A stretch of 40,897 nucleotides of DNA, from contig NZ_JMLH01000025.1 of NCBI RefSeq assembly GCF_000686665.1, forward strand, positions 1 to 40,897, written 5' to 3'. Positions 3,620-40,629 of this stretch are shown piece by piece; positions within the stretch are counted from its first letter, which is position 1, and each line of letters opens with the position of its first letter. Both the position numbers and the translations under genes were made by a program. The notes under the pieces were generated by a model. It was not told the DNA's origin. It worked only from the letters and a program-made list of their open reading frames with translations, and searched no databases. The stretch comes from Thomasclavelia saccharogumia DSM 17460 (GTDB taxonomy: Bacteria > Bacillota_I > Bacilli_A > Erysipelotrichales > Coprobacillaceae).

Positions 3620-3703
3620 TTTTATTTCTCTCCTATTTTTTCTTTTTGGCTGATGATTTAAATAACTCCCTCCTTTATAATGAATTTAGATTGCAAATTT
3701 AAA

Positions 3704-3752
3704 AAGACCGCAAAATCATACCCTCTTATAAGGGTATAAATATTACGGTCTT
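3704..3752 (-). terminator. Leader terminator (attenuator) upstream of GH84 gene
   Basis: Read on the minus strand, AAGACCG (3752-3746) pairs with CGGTCTT (3710-3704). A nested stem ATACCCT/AGGGTAT (3737-3731 with 3724-3718) sits inside and a T-run follows. It lies between the GH84 promoter and its start codon, so it would stop transcription before the gene unless prevented. Its 5' arm is shared with the antiterminator target at 3747-3773. Confidence 0.8.
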
Positions 3753-3773
3753 GCCTAATTAAAGTAACAATCC
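3747..3773 (-). promoter_or_regulatory. RAT element for a BglG/LicT/SacY-type antiterminator
   Basis: On the minus strand the sequence is GGATTGTTACT, six bases (TTAATT), then AGGCAAGACC. This closely matches the ribonucleic antiterminator targets of B. subtilis sacB, bglP and licS. As in those cases, its 3' end (AAGACC) is the 5' arm of the following terminator, so RAT folding and terminator folding exclude each other. It implies induction of the GH84 gene by a PTS-controlled RNA-binding antiterminator. No bglG-family gene is in this window, so the partner must lie elsewhere. Confidence 0.82.
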
Positions 3774-3797
3774 TATAAACATCTGCCATCTATACTA

Positions 3798-3826
3798 ATC
3801 ATAACACCTTATTAAAATAACATCAA
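3798..3826 (-). promoter_or_regulatory. Sigma-A-type promoter of GH84 gene
   Basis: On the minus strand, -35 TTGATG (3826-3821), a 17-base spacer and -10 TATGAT (3803-3798). The predicted start near 3791 gives a leader of about 170 bases that contains the RAT and terminator, as expected for an antitermination-controlled gene. Confidence 0.6.
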
Positions 3827-4006: not shown

Positions 4007-7000
4007 TTAATCAATATTTTGTTGGCTATTAGCTCTTCTTTTCTTATTTTCAAATAAAACAATTGATGTCACAATTAATCCTACAAGTGCATACATTAAA
4101 TTAATTGTATCTCCAGTTTTTACACTTGATATCATATCTCCAGAATTTACTTGATTGTTTGAATTCACTTCTAATCCTGCTATTGCTTTTGTTAAAGCAT
4201 CTTTAGCATTATCTACCTCTGTTTGACTTGCTTCAGGATCATTGAATACTGCTTTAGCATCATTCAATGTATCATTCATCACTTTCCATGATGCTGCTGT
4301 GTAATTTGCTTCACTTAATATATTAGCTTGATTGATTAAACTACTTAATAAGTCCTTATTTGGTTTTAATCTTAAGTTCAAGTACGCTTTGACTAATTCA
4401 CTATATACTTCATCAACTTCATCCTGCATTGCATTTTCGTCAGCTAATACAATATTTGCTTTTTCTAGTGAAGGTAACATTGCATTCCATGATGATTCAA
4501 TATATTTATTTTTATCTAAACCATTGATTTGATCTATTTGTTTTTGTAATGCTGTTTTATCACCTTTGTAGAATTCTAACATCTGCATTGCACCTGCTAG
4601 TCGAGCAAAGGCACTATCTACTTCACTTTGCGTTGCATTAACATTATTATAAACTGTTTGAGCATTTTCTAAAGCTTCATTGAATTCAGCTACTACAGCT
4701 GGTACGACATTTTCTAAATCAGCTTTTTCAGCCATTTCAATAGCAATTTGTAAAGCTGTTTTATTAATTTCGATTACTTCTTTAGCTTCATAAACTTCCA
4801 ATTCATAAATAGAATATCCATATTCTGTAGCCCGTTCAATACCTTGAACCTTAACATAACGAGCATTAATAGGATCAAAGTAATGTTCTTTTAATCCACT
4901 TTCCACATCTTCTACTAAACATACTTCTGTATAATTTTGTCCATCTATCGAAGTTAAAATCTTATATTTGCTAGGGCGAGCATTTTCCCAATATATTTTT
5001 ACATTATCAATTAAATACTCTTGACCTAGATCTACTTCCAACCACTCACTATCATTATATTCTGATGACCATCTCGTATTATCAATATTACCATCAACTA
5101 CATTTTGTGGATCAAATTGTACTAGATTATCTTCAATACTAGATACTGTTACATTTTTATGATATGCCAAATTTTGAGGCGTTTCATCATCAATTATATT
5201 TACCGTCGTTTTTGTTGTAAAACCTGTAATAGCTCCAACAACTTTACTGATTCTTACTTTAAATGATCTATTTCCATCTATTTCATCATTATCAAACAGC
5301 TTCACTGAAGCAAATGCTTCACTCTGTCCATCTTTAAATGTTACATCTTCAATCATTCTTTGGAAATCTTGATCCTGCAAAGCTGTTCCACTTTCAAGTG
5401 AGAATGAAACAGACACTTCACCTTTAGTACCGCCAACACGTTTAATAGGAATTTCTACTCTTCCAGCATCTTCGTTAACGATAATATCATCATTAGCTAT
5501 TTCAATCATACCACTTTCACTATCTAAAACATATATAGCATCTAAGTGTGCTGCATATCCTCCACCATGAGGATTTTGACCACTTAAAACTAATTCTACA
5601 GTATGTTCTCCATATGCTAGTTCTTCACTTTCATACACAATCTGTTGCTCTAAAAAGTCTTCTGTTCCATAATTATCTACAACTATTGTTTCTTGACCAT
5701 CTATTCTCATATTAAAAGTACCATGATTTGGACATGTTGCAGATAAAATATAAAATTTAGATCCTTTAAACTTAAATGTCGCTTTAGCTCCAATAGAATT
5801 TGTCCAGTGACTTGAATTATTATAGAATCCATCTTGTGTTTTGCGATCATCCCATGTACCTTCATACTGAATTTGATTTAATCCAGTTCCAACATCTTGA
5901 TCATCAATAACAATTAATCCATCTGGCACATTTGATTCTAACTCAATTGCTGAGTCAGCCTTGTATACACCTACATTATTAATAAGCGGTACATCTTGTG
6001 AAGATAGAATATTGATTCTTATTTTTGAAGCAGTCATTGGAGCAAGACGTACTAAACGTTTATATCCGATTGTTTGACCATCAAACACTTCTTTCCATGA
6101 ATCAGTATTTTCATTGTATACTTCAACACTAAAATGTTCAATTCTTTGTCCAAGCGGTATATACTCTTGAATGTTGATTACATCAAATAATGTTTCAGAA
6201 CCTAAATCAATAGTTAATGAACCTGTAAATGTTCCGTCATTAGTTGCCCAATAAGTATCATAATTATTATCTGTAATATTATTTGGATTATACGTTTCTA
6301 CCCCTTTATTTTCACCACGATAACTTGTTGCTGTTACTTTACTATTTATAGCAAGATCTTCATCAAATGTATTTGTAATCACTCTGTTTAATTCTCTTAA
6401 TCTTGCTTCATCATCTTCATTAATTAAACCTTTTTTATTAGGTGGTACATTTAATAATAATGGTGTGTTTCTTCCTACAGAATTAAAATAAATATCTACT
6501 AACTTTTCTAAAGATTTAGTTTCTTGACTTTCATGGAAAAACCACCCTGGTCTGATTGAAGTATTAGTTTCTCCCATGATCCAATGAGTCCCTTCAGGAT
6601 CACCGTGATTTAAATAATCTGTATCATAATGTGGCAATGTTAATGTATCGCCTTTAATTTTTGACCAGCAAGGTTCACCGGCATAACCTGCTTCATTTCC
6701 GATCCATCTAACATCTGGTCCCATGTCAGAGAAAATCAAAGCATTTGGCTGTAATTCTTTTACAAGTGCAAACCACTGATCAAAATAATATGTTTGTGTT
6801 ACATTTGATCCTTTAGCACCATCAAACCACACTTCTGAAATTTCACCATATTCAGTTAACAATTTTGTCAACTGATTCATAAAATACACATTATAATCTT
6901 CCCCACGATCATCACCATAATTAGGTGAATTTTGATCCCAAGGTGATAAATAAATCCCTAATTTTAATCCATATTTTTCACAGGCAACAGATAATTCTTT

Positions 7001-9541
7001 TACAATATCTCTACCACGAATATTTTCATTAATTGCTTCATTAGTTATATCATGATCTGTACCTGGACTATCAAACAAAGCAAATCCATCATGATGCTTT
7101 GCTGTAATAATTACCTTTTTAAAACCAGTTTCACTTAAAACTTTTGCCCATTGATCTGGATCCAATTCCGTTGGATTAAAAATAGCTGGATCTTCTTGTC
7201 CATCTCCCCATTCTTTATCAGTAAAAGTATTCACTCCAAAATGGATAAATGCAGATCTTTCATCTTTATTATATTCTAATTGTCGATCAGTTGGTACTGG
7301 ACCATAAGCCTTTGGTACTGTAACTTCACCACTATCTTCTTTACCTGCTAATTCTCTGATTTCATCAGCAGTTAAAACTCGATTAAAGATATTTAGTTCA
7401 TCTACTGATCCATATAAATTTCCAGAATCTTCCAATCCTGCTTTGTTATTTGCACCGATTCGCTTAGCTGGTCCATTGATTACTGCACTTACTCGGTCCT
7501 GATATTCTCCATTTACATATAAGCTTGTTCCACTACCATCACATACAAATGTTAAGTGTACCCATTCTCCTATTGGCGCACTGTAATTGAATGTATAATC
7601 TTCTACACCAAATTCTGTGACCCCTACTTTCCCTGTCTTATTATACTGTTCTAATTTGAGTTCTCCCTGATCTCCTGATAATAATGCAGTATTCGTTGTT
7701 CCAGCTGGGCTCTCTCCTCGATTTACCCATATGCTGGCACTCCAGTTTCCTTCTAAATCTTTGATCCCTAGATCGACAAAACCATTTCCATTAAACTGAA
7801 GTCCTTTTCCTTCGATTCCTTCTGTCCAGCTTACTCCTCCCTGGATCTCTCCTGGATATGATCCTTCACTATCTTTTATTGTTGCTCCTGTTCCTTCGTC
7901 CATTTTCCAGCTCGTATTTACTTCTACATATGGCTCTTTCCAAATTGTTTCATCTTTATAATAATTGATTCCCTGGTTCTCTAGTCTTTCACCATGAGCG
8001 ATCAATCTTTCCTGATATTCATTCCAGCTGCGATCTTCTTTTGCCGTCCAGCCTATTTCTGCATATCCCAAGATTCTTGGAAATGCCATATATTCTAATG
8101 ATTCTAAGCTTGATAATGTCTCTGCCCATAATGGACATTCTATTCCTAATACCTGATCTTTTGATCCGTATTTTGTTGGTTCAAAACTGTATGCTTTTTG
8201 AATCGATATCATTCCTGCCCATTGTAAACCTAGTTCACAATTACTATCATATTTCATATCTAGATATGCATAGTTTGCTGGTGATACGATTTGTTTAAAA
8301 TTACCTACAAATGATGAACCGTTTGTTTGCCAGTATTGGATTATAGCATCTTCACTTTCTACTATATCATCATAATGCTGCCATCCAATTGGTGTCTTTC
8401 CATATTTTTGAACTATCTCTGTTACTCGATTCATGAAATATGAATAATCTTCATCTGATGTTGAGTATGCTTCATCCCCACCTACATGAATATATTTTGA
8501 TGGTGATATCTCTGATACCTGTTTAATTACTTCATCTATAAATTTATATGTATTTTCATTACGACATTCCAATGATGCCCATCCAACATCCCATCCTTGA
8601 TATGGTTTTGTATTGTCATAACCGCTTGCATATGGTTTTCCATCCTCTGTACTGTTTAACATTGGCAATGATACCAACGCTGCCCAGGCATGTCCTGGCA
8701 TATCAAATTCTGGTATTATTTCTATATATCTTTCTTGAGCATATTTTATAATTTCTTTAAACTCTTCTTGGGTATAGAATCCTGGTCTTTCCCCATTATG
8801 TGTACAAGATGTTGAAGCCCCCAAATCTGTTAAGTTGGCATATTCTTCACCTTTGATTTCTAAACGCCATCCCTGGTCATCACTTAAATGCATGTGTAAT
8901 TTGTTGATCTTATATTGTGCGATGTTATCAATATGCTCCTTTACATCATCAACAGAAAAGAAATGTCTTGAAACATCCATCATTGTTCCTCGATATTCAT
9001 ATTCCGGTTTATCTTCGATATGTGAACCTGGAATATTCCATTCTACATCACTAACTACTTCTGACTTTTCAATATCTGCTGGTAACATCTGTCTTAAAGT
9101 CTGCACTGCTCTAAATACACCTGCTGGCTGATTGGCAACGATTTTTACCCCATTATTAGTAGTATCGATCGTATAACCTTCTTCACCCTGATCTTCATTA
9201 TCAGCTGTTGTTAAAACAATGCTGTTATCAACTACATCACTGTCATTTACAACTGCTAATAGATATCCAGTTGATGCTCTAAACTTAGTTGCAATATATT
9301 CCCCAATTTTAGCTAATTCACTTGTTTCATCACTAGTTCTTCCTTTTACATTAATAACAGTATTAGTATTTAAGATAAAGTTTTCCGAATTAATTTCAAG
9401 ACTATTTGGTAAAGGTATTAATGCCGGTTGTGCATTTTCAACAGTTGCGGAAATATTATTAATATTTAAAGGTGTCACTATTGTTGTCAATACTATTACT
9501 AATACTAATAATAGCTTAAATAAATTTTTCCTTTTTTTCAT
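4007..9541 (-). CDS. Cell-surface GH20 beta-N-acetylhexosaminidase / GH29 alpha-L-fucosidase fusion
   Basis: 1844 residues; ATG start with AAAGGACA upstream. Order: signal peptide (1-32); GH20b domain (~37-170); GH20 barrel (~180-510) with HMHLSDDQGWR and catalytic Asp-Glu in HVGGDEAY (~354); LamG-like domain (~520-700); GH29 domain (~744-1064) with FIHFGVNTFTDKEWGDG, HHDGF and nucleophile Asp in EVWFDGAKG; F5/8C; a second galactose-binding-like domain (~1207-1337); Calx-beta (~1344-1454); CBM32 (~1459-1584); three FIVAR repeats; SVKTGD, a hydrophobic span and a KKRR tail as sorting signal. GETNTSIRPGWFFHE resembles GH29 subfamily B, whose known members cut alpha-1,3/1,4 fucose of Lewis-type glycans. 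Inference: the enzyme removes fucose and then exposed GlcNAc/GalNAc from the same chain. Both catalytic motifs look intact. Confidence 0.95.
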   Translation of the reverse strand: MKKRKNLFKLLLVLVIVLTTIVTPLNINNISATVENAQPALIPLPNSLEINSENFILNTNTVINVKGRTSDETSELAKIGEYIATKFRASTGYLLAVVNDSDVVDNSIVLTTADNEDQGEEGYTIDTTNNGVKIVANQPAGVFRAVQTLRQMLPADIEKSEVVSDVEWNIPGSHIEDKPEYEYRGTMMDVSRHFFSVDDVKEHIDNIAQYKINKLHMHLSDDQGWRLEIKGEEYANLTDLGASTSCTHNGERPGFYTQEEFKEIIKYAQERYIEIIPEFDMPGHAWAALVSLPMLNSTEDGKPYASGYDNTKPYQGWDVGWASLECRNENTYKFIDEVIKQVSEISPSKYIHVGGDEAYSTSDEDYSYFMNRVTEIVQKYGKTPIGWQHYDDIVESEDAIIQYWQTNGSSFVGNFKQIVSPANYAYLDMKYDSNCELGLQWAGMISIQKAYSFEPTKYGSKDQVLGIECPLWAETLSSLESLEYMAFPRILGYAEIGWTAKEDRSWNEYQERLIAHGERLENQGINYYKDETIWKEPYVEVNTSWKMDEGTGATIKDSEGSYPGEIQGGVSWTEGIEGKGLQFNGNGFVDLGIKDLEGNWSASIWVNRGESPAGTTNTALLSGDQGELKLEQYNKTGKVGVTEFGVEDYTFNYSAPIGEWVHLTFVCDGSGTSLYVNGEYQDRVSAVINGPAKRIGANNKAGLEDSGNLYGSVDELNIFNRVLTADEIRELAGKEDSGEVTVPKAYGPVPTDRQLEYNKDERSAFIHFGVNTFTDKEWGDGQEDPAIFNPTELDPDQWAKVLSETGFKKVIITAKHHDGFALFDSPGTDHDITNEAINENIRGRDIVKELSVACEKYGLKLGIYLSPWDQNSPNYGDDRGEDYNVYFMNQLTKLLTEYGEISEVWFDGAKGSNVTQTYYFDQWFALVKELQPNALIFSDMGPDVRWIGNEAGYAGEPCWSKIKGDTLTLPHYDTDYLNHGDPEGTHWIMGETNTSIRPGWFFHESQETKSLEKLVDIYFNSVGRNTPLLLNVPPNKKGLINEDDEARLRELNRVITNTFDEDLAINSKVTATSYRGENKGVETYNPNNITDNNYDTYWATNDGTFTGSLTIDLGSETLFDVINIQEYIPLGQRIEHFSVEVYNENTDSWKEVFDGQTIGYKRLVRLAPMTASKIRINILSSQDVPLINNVGVYKADSAIELESNVPDGLIVIDDQDVGTGLNQIQYEGTWDDRKTQDGFYNNSSHWTNSIGAKATFKFKGSKFYILSATCPNHGTFNMRIDGQETIVVDNYGTEDFLEQQIVYESEELAYGEHTVELVLSGQNPHGGGYAAHLDAIYVLDSESGMIEIANDDIIVNEDAGRVEIPIKRVGGTKGEVSVSFSLESGTALQDQDFQRMIEDVTFKDGQSEAFASVKLFDNDEIDGNRSFKVRISKVVGAITGFTTKTTVNIIDDETPQNLAYHKNVTVSSIEDNLVQFDPQNVVDGNIDNTRWSSEYNDSEWLEVDLGQEYLIDNVKIYWENARPSKYKILTSIDGQNYTEVCLVEDVESGLKEHYFDPINARYVKVQGIERATEYGYSIYELEVYEAKEVIEINKTALQIAIEMAEKADLENVVPAVVAEFNEALENAQTVYNNVNATQSEVDSAFARLAGAMQMLEFYKGDKTALQKQIDQINGLDKNKYIESSWNAMLPSLEKANIVLADENAMQDEVDEVYSELVKAYLNLRLKPNKDLLSSLINQANILSEANYTAASWKVMNDTLNDAKAVFNDPEASQTEVDNAKDALTKAIAGLEVNSNNQVNSGDMISSVKTGDTINLMYALVGLIVTSIVLFENKKRRANSQQNID
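4170..4770 (-). repeat. FIVAR repeat block, near-copy of 35770-36370
   Basis: This encodes consecutive helical FIVAR repeats of the GH20-GH29 protein. The DNA at about 4360-4740 closely matches about 35950-36330 in the other giant GH20 gene, including a shared stretch around ttcatcctgcattgcatttt. Both proteins contain NVVPAVV and KGDKTALQKQ segments, and the GH84 protein has the related NVVPAVVTEF and KGDKSALEAL. Such repeats act as stalks between catalytic domains and the wall (family knowledge). Confidence 0.85.
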
Positions 9542-35604: not shown

Positions 35605-38600
35605 TTAACACTGAACTTTCTTCTTTTTATTAATTTGAGATAAAGCTATCAGAGCAGATAACGCACCAATTGAAACAATCGGCATGATTGTAATAGTATC
35701 GCCAGTAGCGACACTTGCTGTTGTATCGCCTGCTTTGACTGGATTGCTAGTTTCTTTTATTTCTACTTGTAATCCCGCAATTGCTTTTGTTAAAACAGCT
35801 TTTATAGTATCTACTTGAGTCTGTGTTGCTTCTGGATCATCTAGTACTGTCTTGGCTTCATTTAAAACATCTGTCACTACCGCCCATGACTCAGCACTAT
35901 AATTAGCAGCATTTAAACCATTGGCCTTATTGATCAATTCTTGTAATAAGTCTTTATTTGGTTTTAATCTTAAGTTCAAGAACGCTTTTACCAATTCTGT
36001 GTATACTTCATTAACTTCATCCTGCATTGCATTTTCGTCAGCTAAAACTGAATTTGCTTTATCCAATACTGGTAACATTGCCTGCCATGATGATTCGATA
36101 TATTTACTTTCATCTAAGGCATTGATATCATCTACTTGTTTTTGTAATGCTGTTTTGTCACCTTTGTAGAATTCTAACATATGCATTGCATTTGCTAGTC
36201 GATCAAAAGCATTATCTACTTCTTCTTGAGTTGCATTAGTTTTTGCATATACTTCTTTAGCGTTTGTTAAAGCTTCATTAAATTCAGTTACTACGGCTGG
36301 TACGACATTTTCTAAACTTGCTTTTTCAGCCATTTCAATAGCAATTTGTAATAAATATTTATTAGCGCTATTTTTTAATTCTAATGCTACAAATGCATCA
36401 GTTAATTTATTGCATAACTCATCTAATTGCTCTTGTGATAATTCATTTGGATCTTGAATTGCATTATTTACATTCTGTCTCGCTTCTTCAAATACTAGCC
36501 AGCTTGCTTTAGTATATAATTCACTATTTAAATCATTATAACTTTCTAATAAATGTTGAGCTTCTGTAATATCAGCTCTTTTTAATAAATTATTTAATGC
36601 CTCATTAAGCGCATTTGCTGCTTCATCAATTTGTGGTTGGGTAATATAATCGGTATTAAAGATTTCTTTAGCATATTTTAATATTTCTAACATTGAATTA
36701 TAAGTAGATACAGTATAATCATCTTTATTACGCTCATTTGCATCATTGATCACTTTTTCTAAATCATCCTTATCTACATCTATTACGGTATCTTCATTAT
36801 AAAATAATTCAAATTCAAAAATTGATGGTCGTGATGCACTTGTAATATTTAATCTAATTTTTGAAGCTGTAATAGTATCAAACTGACTACCGAATTCATA
36901 TCCATTCGTTACACCAGCAACAGCCATTTTTTCAGAATTATCAACATTATAAGTATGTCCAACAACCCAGTTTTCACCATTCCAGTACTCTATATTATAA
37001 CTTGTGATATAATTATATGCTGCTTTATATTCTACGATTCTCGTTTGATTTACTGATACTTCTTCATCAAATGTTAATTCTAAAGTTGCACTAGTAATAT
37101 CATTAGTTGTTGCCCAGCGTGTCAATAAAGAACCGTCGATTGCTTTAATTCCTGTAAAGTTTTCATTATAGACATTGCTTGCCACCGCATCAATTGCTGT
37201 AGATGCAATATTTTCTGGACCTGCAATTTCAATTTTTTCATTAACGATTTTGAAATTATCAAGTTTTCCGATAATACCACTACCTATTTTTTCTGTTGGC
37301 AATATCATTGATGTTGATAAATTCTTAGTAACATAACTTCCAAATTCTGTTCTTTTTCCAGCACTAATTAATTTATCATTTACATAAAGATTAGTACCAT
37401 CTTTATCGGCAGTTATCATAATTTTTAACCATTTTTCTGTTTCCACTTCATAATCAAAAACATATGTATAACCATCTCGTTCATATCCTAATTTACCTGT
37501 ATATTCACCAGCTTTATTTTTTTGATTAAGATTGATCTTACCATCGTTTCCTTCAAATAAAGCAGCATCTTTTGATGTATTTTCATCAATATAAATATCA
37601 AATGATACAGTAGCTGGAAAACCGATACTATCAAATGGCATCTGTAAATATGAATCTCCATCTAGTACTAAAGCATTTCCAGATATTCCCCTTGCTGTAG
37701 TAGAATTCAATATACCATTATAATCATTTCCACTAACATCTATTGCTTTATTATCATTAATTGTCTCAAAATCAATATCAACTACTGTCTCTGTCTTACT
37801 TTGAACATATCTAGCAGGATTACTTGTAGCACTTGGTCCTGTTTTTAATAAATATTCATAAGATGTTTTAAATTCATCATAAGACTGATCTTCAGTCTTT
37901 TCACCATACCAAGTACGCTCACCAATCAAAGCAATACCATATTTTAACCGATCAAAAATATCAAAATCACTAACGCCATCTAATAAGAATCCATCATCAT
38001 TCCATAGTACCACTGATGCACCTCTTAATTGCGGATGTGAAATTGGTAATACTGCACCACCACTTCCACGAGTAGTAGTAATATCATTAACACTCCATTG
38101 ATTATATAATTTTTCAATATTTAAATAATTATTATAGTTGTTATTTCCACCTGGAACAATATATAACCAAGATCCAGAACAATTAATAATTGGATTACCA
38201 TTAGCAACTGTTTTTTTAACATCAGCCCAGTATGGAGCCCATAAATAATATGTTACTTCTTTGTTTTGCGGAGTTACATAGCCTTTAAAACCGGAACTTC
38301 CATCACTAGATGCCCATGCTCTTGCTTCATAACCACGATCTTGAATATACTCAGTATAATGATTAATATATTGCTGCATTGCTTCTGAATATATAGGTGC
38401 AGAATTATATTCATCTGTGCCAAAATGGAAAATTGGTGTTTGAATTACGGCATCTCCAGGAGCGTTTCCTATTAACTCTTGAGTTAACTCATCTACAAAA
38501 TCAATTGTTGGCTGATGCAAAGTAACATTATTAACATCAGTTGAAGAATCGTCTAATATTTTTAAATGACGAACATCATACATATTATCATGCATTTCTG

Positions 38601-40629
38601 GAAGTAGAGAAAATACGGCACTATGAGCTGGTGTATCCAATTCTGTAACTACGCTAACTCCATATTTTGCTGCTTCTAATTGGTATTCAATATAATCTTC
38701 TTTTGAAATTTGATATGAATGACTACCAATATTTTTGTCATTTTCAATTCTAAATGATGATAATTCTTTTGCTTGTTGAATATTTTCTTCTGATCCTATT
38801 TCTGAGTTAGTAATTTTATCACCACGATCATCATTAATATGCATAACAATTTCATTTACTTTAAATAAAGGTAACATCTCTGTGATTTCTTTAATATAAT
38901 CTAATTTAATTTCCGAACGTGCAATATCTAAAGCAATTGATCGTACTTCATATTTTGGATAATCATGTGCTGTCCCTTTAGGAATTGTTAATTCATCCAA
39001 ATTTAAATATAATGCCTGTACAATTGTAACACCACCATAAAACACACCATTTAGTGTAGTTGAATCAATAGTGACATAATCATCAACAGTCATGATATAT
39101 CCTTCATCGCCAAGAATTGCAACATCATCTTCATCTGTTAATGAAAGATAAATATCACCATCTTCAGGATTAGTTCCTTTTTTTACATCAATATCTAATC
39201 CTACTAATTTATTCAAATATCCTGATAAAATATTTGCCTGCACTTCTAAACTTTCATCATTATAAATAATCTTTGAATCTTTAGAAATAGAATAATTTCC
39301 ATTTTCACTATGCCATTCTTGAATTGAAGGAATTACATTTGGAAATTCATTTTTACCACTATCTTCATATTTACCAGGAATATGAATTTTATTATCATTA
39401 CTACTTATTGCAATATCATTTTCATCATTTTTATTAGTAACTTTATACATAATATGAACATCTTTATCAACTAAAGGCTGATAATAAATTCCATCTAAAC
39501 TAATGATTGATTGATAATCCGAACCATAAATCTCCACATCAAAATTCTTAGTAATTGCTTCTGAAAAGATAATTTTTTCATTAGAATTTTCTGGTAATTC
39601 AAATCCCTCAGATTCTAATTTTGTAAGTGCCATCTTAGCCGTTTCGATTTCTGGTTCTAACATTGCATATCTATATGCTTCAATTTCAAATATGCTTCCA
39701 CCATATTTATTATTATTGCTAGGATTCGTAAACATTTTTGTTTGGTTAACTTTTATATATCTTACTTCTTGAGGATCAAAAGCAATCTCACGCATATTTT
39801 CAACATTGATCATTGAATTATCTTTTACATCTAAAATTGTTGTATAATCATTACCATCTTTAGAAATTTCAACCGTATATTCTAAAGGCTCTCTGAAAAA
39901 ATTAACATTTACTTGAGATAATATCTCTACTTCTTTTAAATCTACTATAATCCATTGATCATCTGTTTTATCAGCTGACCATCTAGTTGTTTCGTCACCA
40001 TCTACTACTTTTTCTCCTACAAATTGAGGATATTTCCAACTATCGCCAACTTTTCCTCCTTCGACTCCCGAATATGATACATCTTTTGATAGAGCTAAAT
40101 TTACATTGTCTTTTTGTGCTCCATTTATCTCAATTTCATAAATTGAATAGCCCCAACTAGCTTTCACTGGTTCATTACATTTAATACGTACATATCTTGC
40201 TGATGCATCGCTAATGAAAGCATCTTTTTCAATTGTTTGTTTTCCCCCTTTTGCATCAGTATTTACATATAGATCAGTAAAATTATTACCATCTAATGAA
40301 GTTTGTATTTGATATGATTTTGCATATGCACCTTCCCAAGAAATATAAATTCTTAATAAATCATATACATTTTGTAAATCAACAGTAATCCATTGTTCTA
40401 CAGTCCCATCTTCTGAAGGTCCCTCATTTTCACCTAAACCAGTAGCCATCTTAGAACTCCAACGAGAACTTTCATCGTCATCAATTCCATCAACAGCCAG
40501 TGCCCCAACTAATTCTGAACGGGCAGGTCTTACACTCGATGTAATAACCGGCTTATTTAATGCAATATTTTCATATTCTTCAGCAGCATTGACTAAAACA
40601 ATTTTTTGCGAAAAACATGATAACATCAT
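35605..40629 (-). CDS. Giant cell-surface GH20 glycosidase (hexosaminidase/lacto-N-biosidase-like)
   Basis: 1674 residues from ATG 40629. Order: short signal-like region; two F5/8C (CBM32-like) domains (~20-160 and ~165-320); GH20b (~445-560); GH20 barrel (~556-930) with VRSIALDIARSEI, HINDDRGDK and catalytic Asp-Glu in FHFGTDEYNSAP (usual HxGGDE has Gly where this has Thr); LamG-like (~950-1136); a third F5/8C (~1143-1276); FIVAR repeats (~1283-1620); SVATGD, hydrophobic span, KKKK tail (sorting signal). GH20 removes beta-GlcNAc/GalNAc; a lacto-N-biosidase role is possible because the domain layout is similar, but is inference. The N-terminus looks damaged: no ribosome site and no basic n-region. 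Confidence 0.9.
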   Translation of the reverse strand: MMLSCFSQKIVLVNAAEEYENIALNKPVITSSVRPARSELVGALAVDGIDDDESSRWSSKMATGLGENEGPSEDGTVEQWITVDLQNVYDLLRIYISWEGAYAKSYQIQTSLDGNNFTDLYVNTDAKGGKQTIEKDAFISDASARYVRIKCNEPVKASWGYSIYEIEINGAQKDNVNLALSKDVSYSGVEGGKVGDSWKYPQFVGEKVVDGDETTRWSADKTDDQWIIVDLKEVEILSQVNVNFFREPLEYTVEISKDGNDYTTILDVKDNSMINVENMREIAFDPQEVRYIKVNQTKMFTNPSNNNKYGGSIFEIEAYRYAMLEPEIETAKMALTKLESEGFELPENSNEKIIFSEAITKNFDVEIYGSDYQSIISLDGIYYQPLVDKDVHIMYKVTNKNDENDIAISSNDNKIHIPGKYEDSGKNEFPNVIPSIQEWHSENGNYSISKDSKIIYNDESLEVQANILSGYLNKLVGLDIDVKKGTNPEDGDIYLSLTDEDDVAILGDEGYIMTVDDYVTIDSTTLNGVFYGGVTIVQALYLNLDELTIPKGTAHDYPKYEVRSIALDIARSEIKLDYIKEITEMLPLFKVNEIVMHINDDRGDKITNSEIGSEENIQQAKELSSFRIENDKNIGSHSYQISKEDYIEYQLEAAKYGVSVVTELDTPAHSAVFSLLPEMHDNMYDVRHLKILDDSSTDVNNVTLHQPTIDFVDELTQELIGNAPGDAVIQTPIFHFGTDEYNSAPIYSEAMQQYINHYTEYIQDRGYEARAWASSDGSSGFKGYVTPQNKEVTYYLWAPYWADVKKTVANGNPIINCSGSWLYIVPGGNNNYNNYLNIEKLYNQWSVNDITTTRGSGGAVLPISHPQLRGASVVLWNDDGFLLDGVSDFDIFDRLKYGIALIGERTWYGEKTEDQSYDEFKTSYEYLLKTGPSATSNPARYVQSKTETVVDIDFETINDNKAIDVSGNDYNGILNSTTARGISGNALVLDGDSYLQMPFDSIGFPATVSFDIYIDENTSKDAALFEGNDGKINLNQKNKAGEYTGKLGYERDGYTYVFDYEVETEKWLKIMITADKDGTNLYVNDKLISAGKRTEFGSYVTKNLSTSMILPTEKIGSGIIGKLDNFKIVNEKIEIAGPENIASTAIDAVASNVYNENFTGIKAIDGSLLTRWATTNDITSATLELTFDEEVSVNQTRIVEYKAAYNYITSYNIEYWNGENWVVGHTYNVDNSEKMAVAGVTNGYEFGSQFDTITASKIRLNITSASRPSIFEFELFYNEDTVIDVDKDDLEKVINDANERNKDDYTVSTYNSMLEILKYAKEIFNTDYITQPQIDEAANALNEALNNLLKRADITEAQHLLESYNDLNSELYTKASWLVFEEARQNVNNAIQDPNELSQEQLDELCNKLTDAFVALELKNSANKYLLQIAIEMAEKASLENVVPAVVTEFNEALTNAKEVYAKTNATQEEVDNAFDRLANAMHMLEFYKGDKTALQKQVDDINALDESKYIESSWQAMLPVLDKANSVLADENAMQDEVNEVYTELVKAFLNLRLKPNKDLLQELINKANGLNAANYSAESWAVVTDVLNEAKTVLDDPEATQTQVDTIKAVLTKAIAGLQVEIKETSNPVKAGDTTASVATGDTITIMPIVSIGALSALIALSQINKKKKVQC
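35770..36370 (-). repeat. FIVAR repeat block, near-copy of 4170-4770
   Basis: Corresponding repeats of the giant GH20. Shared features with the fusion enzyme include LLQIAIEMAEKASLENVV, KGDKTALQKQ and NLRLKPNKDLL segments and a similar spacer. The two copies lie over 31 kb apart in the same orientation. Confidence 0.85.

Follow-up and report, generated by a model that had tools for sequence, protein, structure and literature searches.

Several antiterminators that sense a PTS sugar and act on a ribonucleic antiterminator (RAT) in the leader of their target genes have been described. LicT of B. subtilis belongs to the beta-glucoside PTS (bglPH), and the secreted beta-glucanase bglS is also one of its targets. 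To our knowledge, the RAT regulons characterized so far consist mostly of operons for uptake, along with an exoenzyme or two. B. subtilis SacY is a PTS-sugar-sensing antiterminator that controls the secreted levansucrase (sacB) through a RAT that overlaps a terminator (PMC12502629). The NagY-NagE-HylA system of E. faecalis joins an antiterminator of the SacY/BglG family, a GlcNAc PTS and the glycan-degrading HylA, which is under RAT control (PMC9981650, PMC12502629). That a PTS-sensing antiterminator can govern a secreted enzyme through a RAT is already known, from SacY and sacB and, with GlcNAc, from NagY and hylA (PMC9981650). In this family of antiterminators the protein is inactive in the absence of the sugar, because an EII then phosphorylates its PRD1. 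Once the sugar is present, PRD1 loses its phosphate, PRD2 is phosphorylated by HPr, and the RAT is bound by the dimer (PMC7430163).

The stretch of Thomasclavelia saccharogumia DNA analysed here (the window, 40,897 nucleotides) carries a leader of this kind upstream of a GH84 gene (Table 1). The encoded protein matches PF07555 at 2.6e-105 and has F5/8C and FIVAR domains and a signal-like N-terminus. On the minus strand the TTGATG and TATGAT elements are separated by a 17-nt spacer, and TTGATG-N17-TATKAT lies at an equal distance from the RAT in four orthologous GH84 leaders; a promoter scan of this AT-rich stretch gave 8 matches with 9.7 expected, which on its own is chance level. The RAT reads GGATTGTTACT-TTAATT-AGGCAAGACC (3773-3747, minus strand). 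The terminator hairpin (3752-3704) begins with the AAGACC of the RAT and ends in GGTCTTTTT, followed by U's. Its fold has an energy of -26.2 kcal/mol (z = -6.7), and 0 of 200 shuffles were equally stable. The minimum free energy fold of the isolated RAT was uninformative (z between 0 and -0.8). This is expected, because the RAT hairpin is described as unstable without its antiterminator protein. Nothing in the Rfam scans reached the gathering threshold, and all weaker matches were attributable to chance. The leader has the sequence and fold of a RAT between a promoter and a terminator, the RAT overlaps and excludes the intrinsic terminator, and a CAT_RBD-PRD-PRD protein is encoded in the genome; these are the marks of a BglG/LicT antitermination leader. 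The first-pass annotation had described a promoter, a RAT and a terminator sharing AAGACC in this leader, and both its coordinates and its description hold on pattern matching and folding. It had also regarded a secreted GH84 enzyme as an unusual RAT target. Such control is less unusual than it had assumed, with precedents in the sacB levansucrase and E. faecalis hylA (PMC12502629, PMC9981650). As it had pointed out, there is no neighbouring PTS or antiterminator gene within the window; the genes relevant to this RAT are on two other contigs, C102 and C81.

Table 1. Features of the GH84 leader in the window and related features on other contigs of the genome
Feature	Position	Strand	Basis or remark
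-35 element TTGATG	3821..3826	-	sequence; kept in orthologous leaders
-10 element TATGAT, TG-extended	3798..3803	-	sequence; kept in orthologous leaders
RAT (ribonucleic antiterminator), 27 nt, GGATTGTTACTTTAATTAGGCAAGACC	3747..3773	-	pattern match and conservation
Intrinsic terminator hairpin; its 5' arm AAGACC is the RAT 3' arm	3704..3752	-	folding
Terminator 3' arm GGTCTT and U tract	3698..3709	-	sequence, folding
Ribosome binding site AGGAG	3630..3634	-	sequence
GH84 beta-N-acetylglucosaminidase; GTG start; open at contig end	2..3619	-	PF07555 match
NagY-type RAT with overlapping terminator, EIIA leader	L122:945-969 (C81)		also in EIIA leaders of relatives
EIICB pieces	L122 (C81) 132-725; L011 (C102) 5535-5840		
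160-bp repeat copies	L011:5825-5984 (C102); others on C92, C57, C31, C13, C2, C1		

A search for other RATs showed that the window leader is part of a regulon and not a single controlled gene. A scan of the 3.14 Mb genome gave five matches to the exact pattern and 0 to the reversed-pattern control. The genes behind these RATs encode GH84 (window and C102) and GH20 (twice on C11, once on C108). A Pfam census in which split matches were counted once found 3 GH84 and 9 GH20 genes, and RATs precede 2/3 and 3/9 of them, respectively. The third GH84 gene, on C115, has its leader near a contig end. The window also holds two GH20 genes (4007-9541 and 35605-40629), and no RAT was found in the leader of either. 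Judging from the leaders, RAT control is selective and picks out part of the GH84 and GH20 genes. The protein encoded at 4007-9541 (1844 aa) is a fusion of GH20 catalytic and alpha-L-fucosidase domains.

Across the genus, 37 exact copies of the RAT were found in 7 of 9 genomes, with up to 9 per genome and 0 in the reversed control. They precede 14 GH84 genes, 18 GH20 genes and five others, all coding for large proteins of apparently secreted type, secretion being predicted from signal-like N-termini. The five others are single genes for GH51-like, GH2, GH16 and DUF4082 proteins and for a secreted protein whose frame is broken. None of the 37 hydrolase-type RATs in the genus is followed by a PTS gene. 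The DUF4082 protein (L068:3894-7373, 1159 aa) also has lectin-like domains and no recognised catalytic domain; because a RAT precedes its gene, it is a candidate member of the glycan-degradation set. When the orthologous GH84 leaders of five genomes were compared, the 27-nt RAT was invariant while the terminator loop and flanks diverged, which rules out that the element is not conserved. In 36 of 40 leaders an uninterrupted helix of 9 or more pairs runs from inside the RAT to a U-rich stretch, versus 2.1% of shuffles. This helix-length test replaced a loose terminator-arm pattern, whose shuffle expectation was high (7/40). Leaders that lack GGTCTT mostly have a deeper arm, AGGCAAGAC/GTCTTGCC, instead.

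Three CAT_RBD (BglG-family) proteins are encoded in the genome. The one on C102 has a CAT_RBD and two PRDs, and its gene is directly upstream of the second RAT-GH84 unit, where a consensus promoter (TTGACA-N16-TATAAT) stands just before the RAT. Its architecture is that of LicT, and all four PRD histidines of LicT are aligned and conserved. It scores below the LicT equivalog cut-off (NF046042, 258.7 vs 300 bits) and the GlcT equivalog cut-off (NF047357, 187.7 vs 320 bits), so that its sugar specificity rests on the linked PTS. The full cluster in relatives consists of a divergent EIIA gene followed by EIICB, the antiterminator, a RAT and a GH84 or GH20 gene. The linked EIICB of T. cocleata scores 599.7 bits with the GlcNAc-specific model TIGR01998 (cut-off 553.2) and 398.8 bits with the glucose model TIGR02002, below its cut-off of 591.8. 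There is no EIICB beside the antiterminator in An173 and G017. The nag-linked antiterminators form one clade (support 100/99), apart from the LicT and GlcT paralogues, and the single Enterococcus homologue in the tree falls outside it. Judging from these sequences, the LicT-like CAT-PRD-PRD protein on C102 is most likely the cognate regulator of the window RAT. The GlcT and LicT paralogues were also considered as regulators and do not fit the hydrolase RATs. A further protein on C11 (L010:815-1495, 226 aa), encoded near a RAT-controlled GH20 gene, has two PRD domains and no RNA-binding domain; similar frames of 236-244 aa are found in G001, G004 and G006.

The RAT and the antiterminator occur together. 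In the genus, RATs are present in 7/7 genomes with the antiterminator vs 0/2 without it. Among 43 genomes of the family, exact RATs are present in 11/14 genomes with the antiterminator vs 0/29 without it (hypergeometric probability ~6e-8, a simple count that ignores the kinship of the genomes). Of the three genomes that have the antiterminator and no exact RAT, G040 and G017 carry RATs with one mismatch ahead of hydrolase genes; in G040 the gene was assigned from the likeness of its N-terminus to the G018 GH84. In G017 the RAT is GGCGAGACC and the terminator arm is changed to match (GATCTCG). In the third, G037, the antiterminator is present and no clear RAT-hydrolase pair was found near its gene. 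A label test on the tree gave two changes for the RAT group, and the one-mismatch genomes, which were labelled apart, fall inside the same clade. The BglG/LicT-type antitermination proposed in the first-pass annotation draws support from this co-occurrence, from conservation and from the RAT-terminator overlap. The cluster of the relatives, in which a GlcNAc-specific EIICB is linked with the probable cognate antiterminator, supports its guess of a PTS-sensed sugar, GlcNAc for example.

A second class of RAT was found on the divergent EIIA gene. Its leader has TTGACA-N17-TAGAAT, then GTGATGTTACTATTAAATTAGGCATTAGC, then a terminator starting AGGCATTAGC. This pattern occurs once per genome in seven RAT genomes, at the EIIA leader where inspected, and in one further genome of the family, G031. 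The RAT of E. faecalis nagY is TTTCATGTGACTAGATAATACTAGGCATGGAA (PMC12502629), and the EIIA RAT resembles it. Pair U4-A25 of the LicT type is changed to A4-U25 in the NagY type. Variant RATs are also found in tandem on C1 (L013:3420-3700); GGGTAGTTACATTTAGTTGGCTAAACC and GAGTGGTTACATTTAGTTGGCCAAATCC are flanked there by a LicT-like gene and a beta-glucoside PTS and differ from the hydrolase RATs in compensated pairs. In an alignment of 13 RAT forms, a small and hand-picked sample, the assumed RAT fold holds in 98.7% of cells. Three pairs (2-28, 4-25 and 5-24) show changes on both sides, with a covariation score reached by 0/500 shuffles. The pairing scheme of this fold we take to be that of the LicT-RAT structure.

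These features allow a comparison with the known systems. As in the NagY system, an antiterminator linked to a GlcNAc PTS has a glycan-degrading enzyme in its regulon (PMC9981650), the RAT overlaps the terminator, and the E. faecalis RAT (ATGTGACT...AGGCATGG) resembles the Thomasclavelia EIIA RAT. However, the hydrolase RATs are of the LicT/SacT type and the NagY-like RAT is on the EIIA leader only, so the hydrolase RATs fall outside the NagY class. E. faecalis has the order nagY-nagE, a fused EIICBA and autoregulation, whereas the order here is EIICB-antiterminator, with EIIA encoded separately by a divergent gene, and upstream of EIICB no hydrolase-type RAT was seen. Most E. faecalis targets serve transport and metabolism, whereas those found here are almost all exoenzymes. 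A PTS-sensing antiterminator, a secreted enzyme and a RAT-terminator overlap are shared with SacY, but SacY is sucrose-specific and sacXY is itself RAT-controlled. The LicT RAT is of the same sequence class as the hydrolase RATs, although the latter are mostly 27 nt long, one apical base pair short of the 29-nt form. In an Erysipelothrix MAG, which is more distant, it is the nag-type EIICB that has a RAT-terminator in front of it; this suggests that uptake is the older RAT target and that exoenzymes were recruited later.

We consider it highly probable that the window leader is a BglG/LicT-type attenuator and that the antiterminator of the C102 type, linked to the GlcNAc PTS, switches on a regulon of secreted glycosidases. 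Transcription would begin upstream of GH84 and stop by default at the terminator (3752-3704). Binding of the cognate antiterminator dimer to the RAT in the nascent RNA would sequester AAGACC, so that the terminator would not form and the enzyme would be made. Without the sugar, EIICB would phosphorylate PRD1 and turn the antiterminator off; import of GlcNAc would lead to its dephosphorylation and turn the regulon on. We infer the protein-RNA binding, the phosphorylation control and GlcNAc as the signal from likeness to the family, and GlcNAc is the likely signal in view of the linked PTS. The members of the regulon would be 1-9 RAT genes per genome, five in this one, for secreted beta-N-acetylhexosaminidases and further glycosidases, along with the antiterminator's own EIIA. 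GlcNAc released by GH84 and GH20 would close a positive loop. It is possible, though we propose it only tentatively, that one antiterminator reads both the LicT-type RATs on the secreted glycosidases and the NagY-type RAT on the EIIA of the sensing PTS. If so, sensor and exoenzymes would be induced in a graded manner.

Other readings of the leader deserve consideration. The hairpin might be an ordinary terminator and the RAT-like sequence a chance match or a non-regulatory repeat, a reading for which the chance-level promoter scan could be cited. It is contradicted already by the 37 exact copies in the genus against 0 reversed, all before one functional class, by the 27-nt block that stays invariant in five GH84 leaders between divergent flanks, and by the compensatory changes inside the RAT fold, and can hardly be entertained. 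It might also be argued that the LicT-like antiterminator on C1 serves these RATs and that beta-glucosides, not GlcNAc, are the signal, since that protein passes the LicT equivalog cut-off, its gene has a beta-glucoside PTS and a GH1-like gene as neighbours, and RATs of this antiterminator family resemble each other. This is very improbable. The C1 protein comes with tandem RATs of its own, in which the differences are compensated (GGGTAGTTACATTTAGTTGGCTAAACC), its operon contains no hydrolase-type RAT, and a close homologue of it was not found in G001, G002, G006 and G008, all of which have RATs on hydrolases.

In a further reading the RATs are served by the nag-linked antiterminator, but the sugar to which it responds is another one carried by the EIICB, such as GalNAc, a mucin disaccharide, glucosamine or glucose. 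The substrate of EIICB is assigned by HMM and the glucose model TIGR02002 also matches it at 398.8 bits; moreover, some of the RAT targets (GH2, GH16, GH51-like) are hydrolases that liberate other sugars. Only the GlcNAc EIIBC model is matched above its cut-off, however, and 32/37 targets are GH84 or GH20, families that release GlcNAc or GalNAc. We regard a signal other than GlcNAc as unlikely.

In the genome analysed here the EIICB gene is in two pieces, an N-terminal third on C81 and a C-terminal end on C102. At the contig edge the C81 piece gives way to foreign sequence; the C102 piece abuts a 160-bp palindromic repeat. The middle piece was not found in this assembly, and none of the fragments exceeds the TIGR01998 cut-off. 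The repeat is present in nine identical and two divergent copies, usually after TATAATAGGTGT, with a fold z of -9.5, and is MITE-like. EIICB may thus be interrupted and sugar sensing lost in this genome. Should the break be genuine and not a product of assembly, the antiterminator would have lost its negative input, and expression of the regulon in this genome may be constitutive.

In our literature search no paper was found on antitermination of glycosidases in Thomasclavelia, and no scattered, almost wholly exoenzyme regulon with a separate EIIA RAT class. What is new is the size of the regulon, its near-exclusive exoenzyme content and the two RAT classes with compensatory pair changes; here the exoenzymes make up the regulon. 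The RAT can be used as a search tag for more members of the set, including proteins that have no recognised catalytic domain. The cell probably releases this set of enzymes on sensing N-acetylglucosamine. This gives a testable rule for a group of gut bacteria: a PTS sugar sensor, working by RNA antitermination at many scattered genes, would set the release of enzymes that trim host-type glycans.
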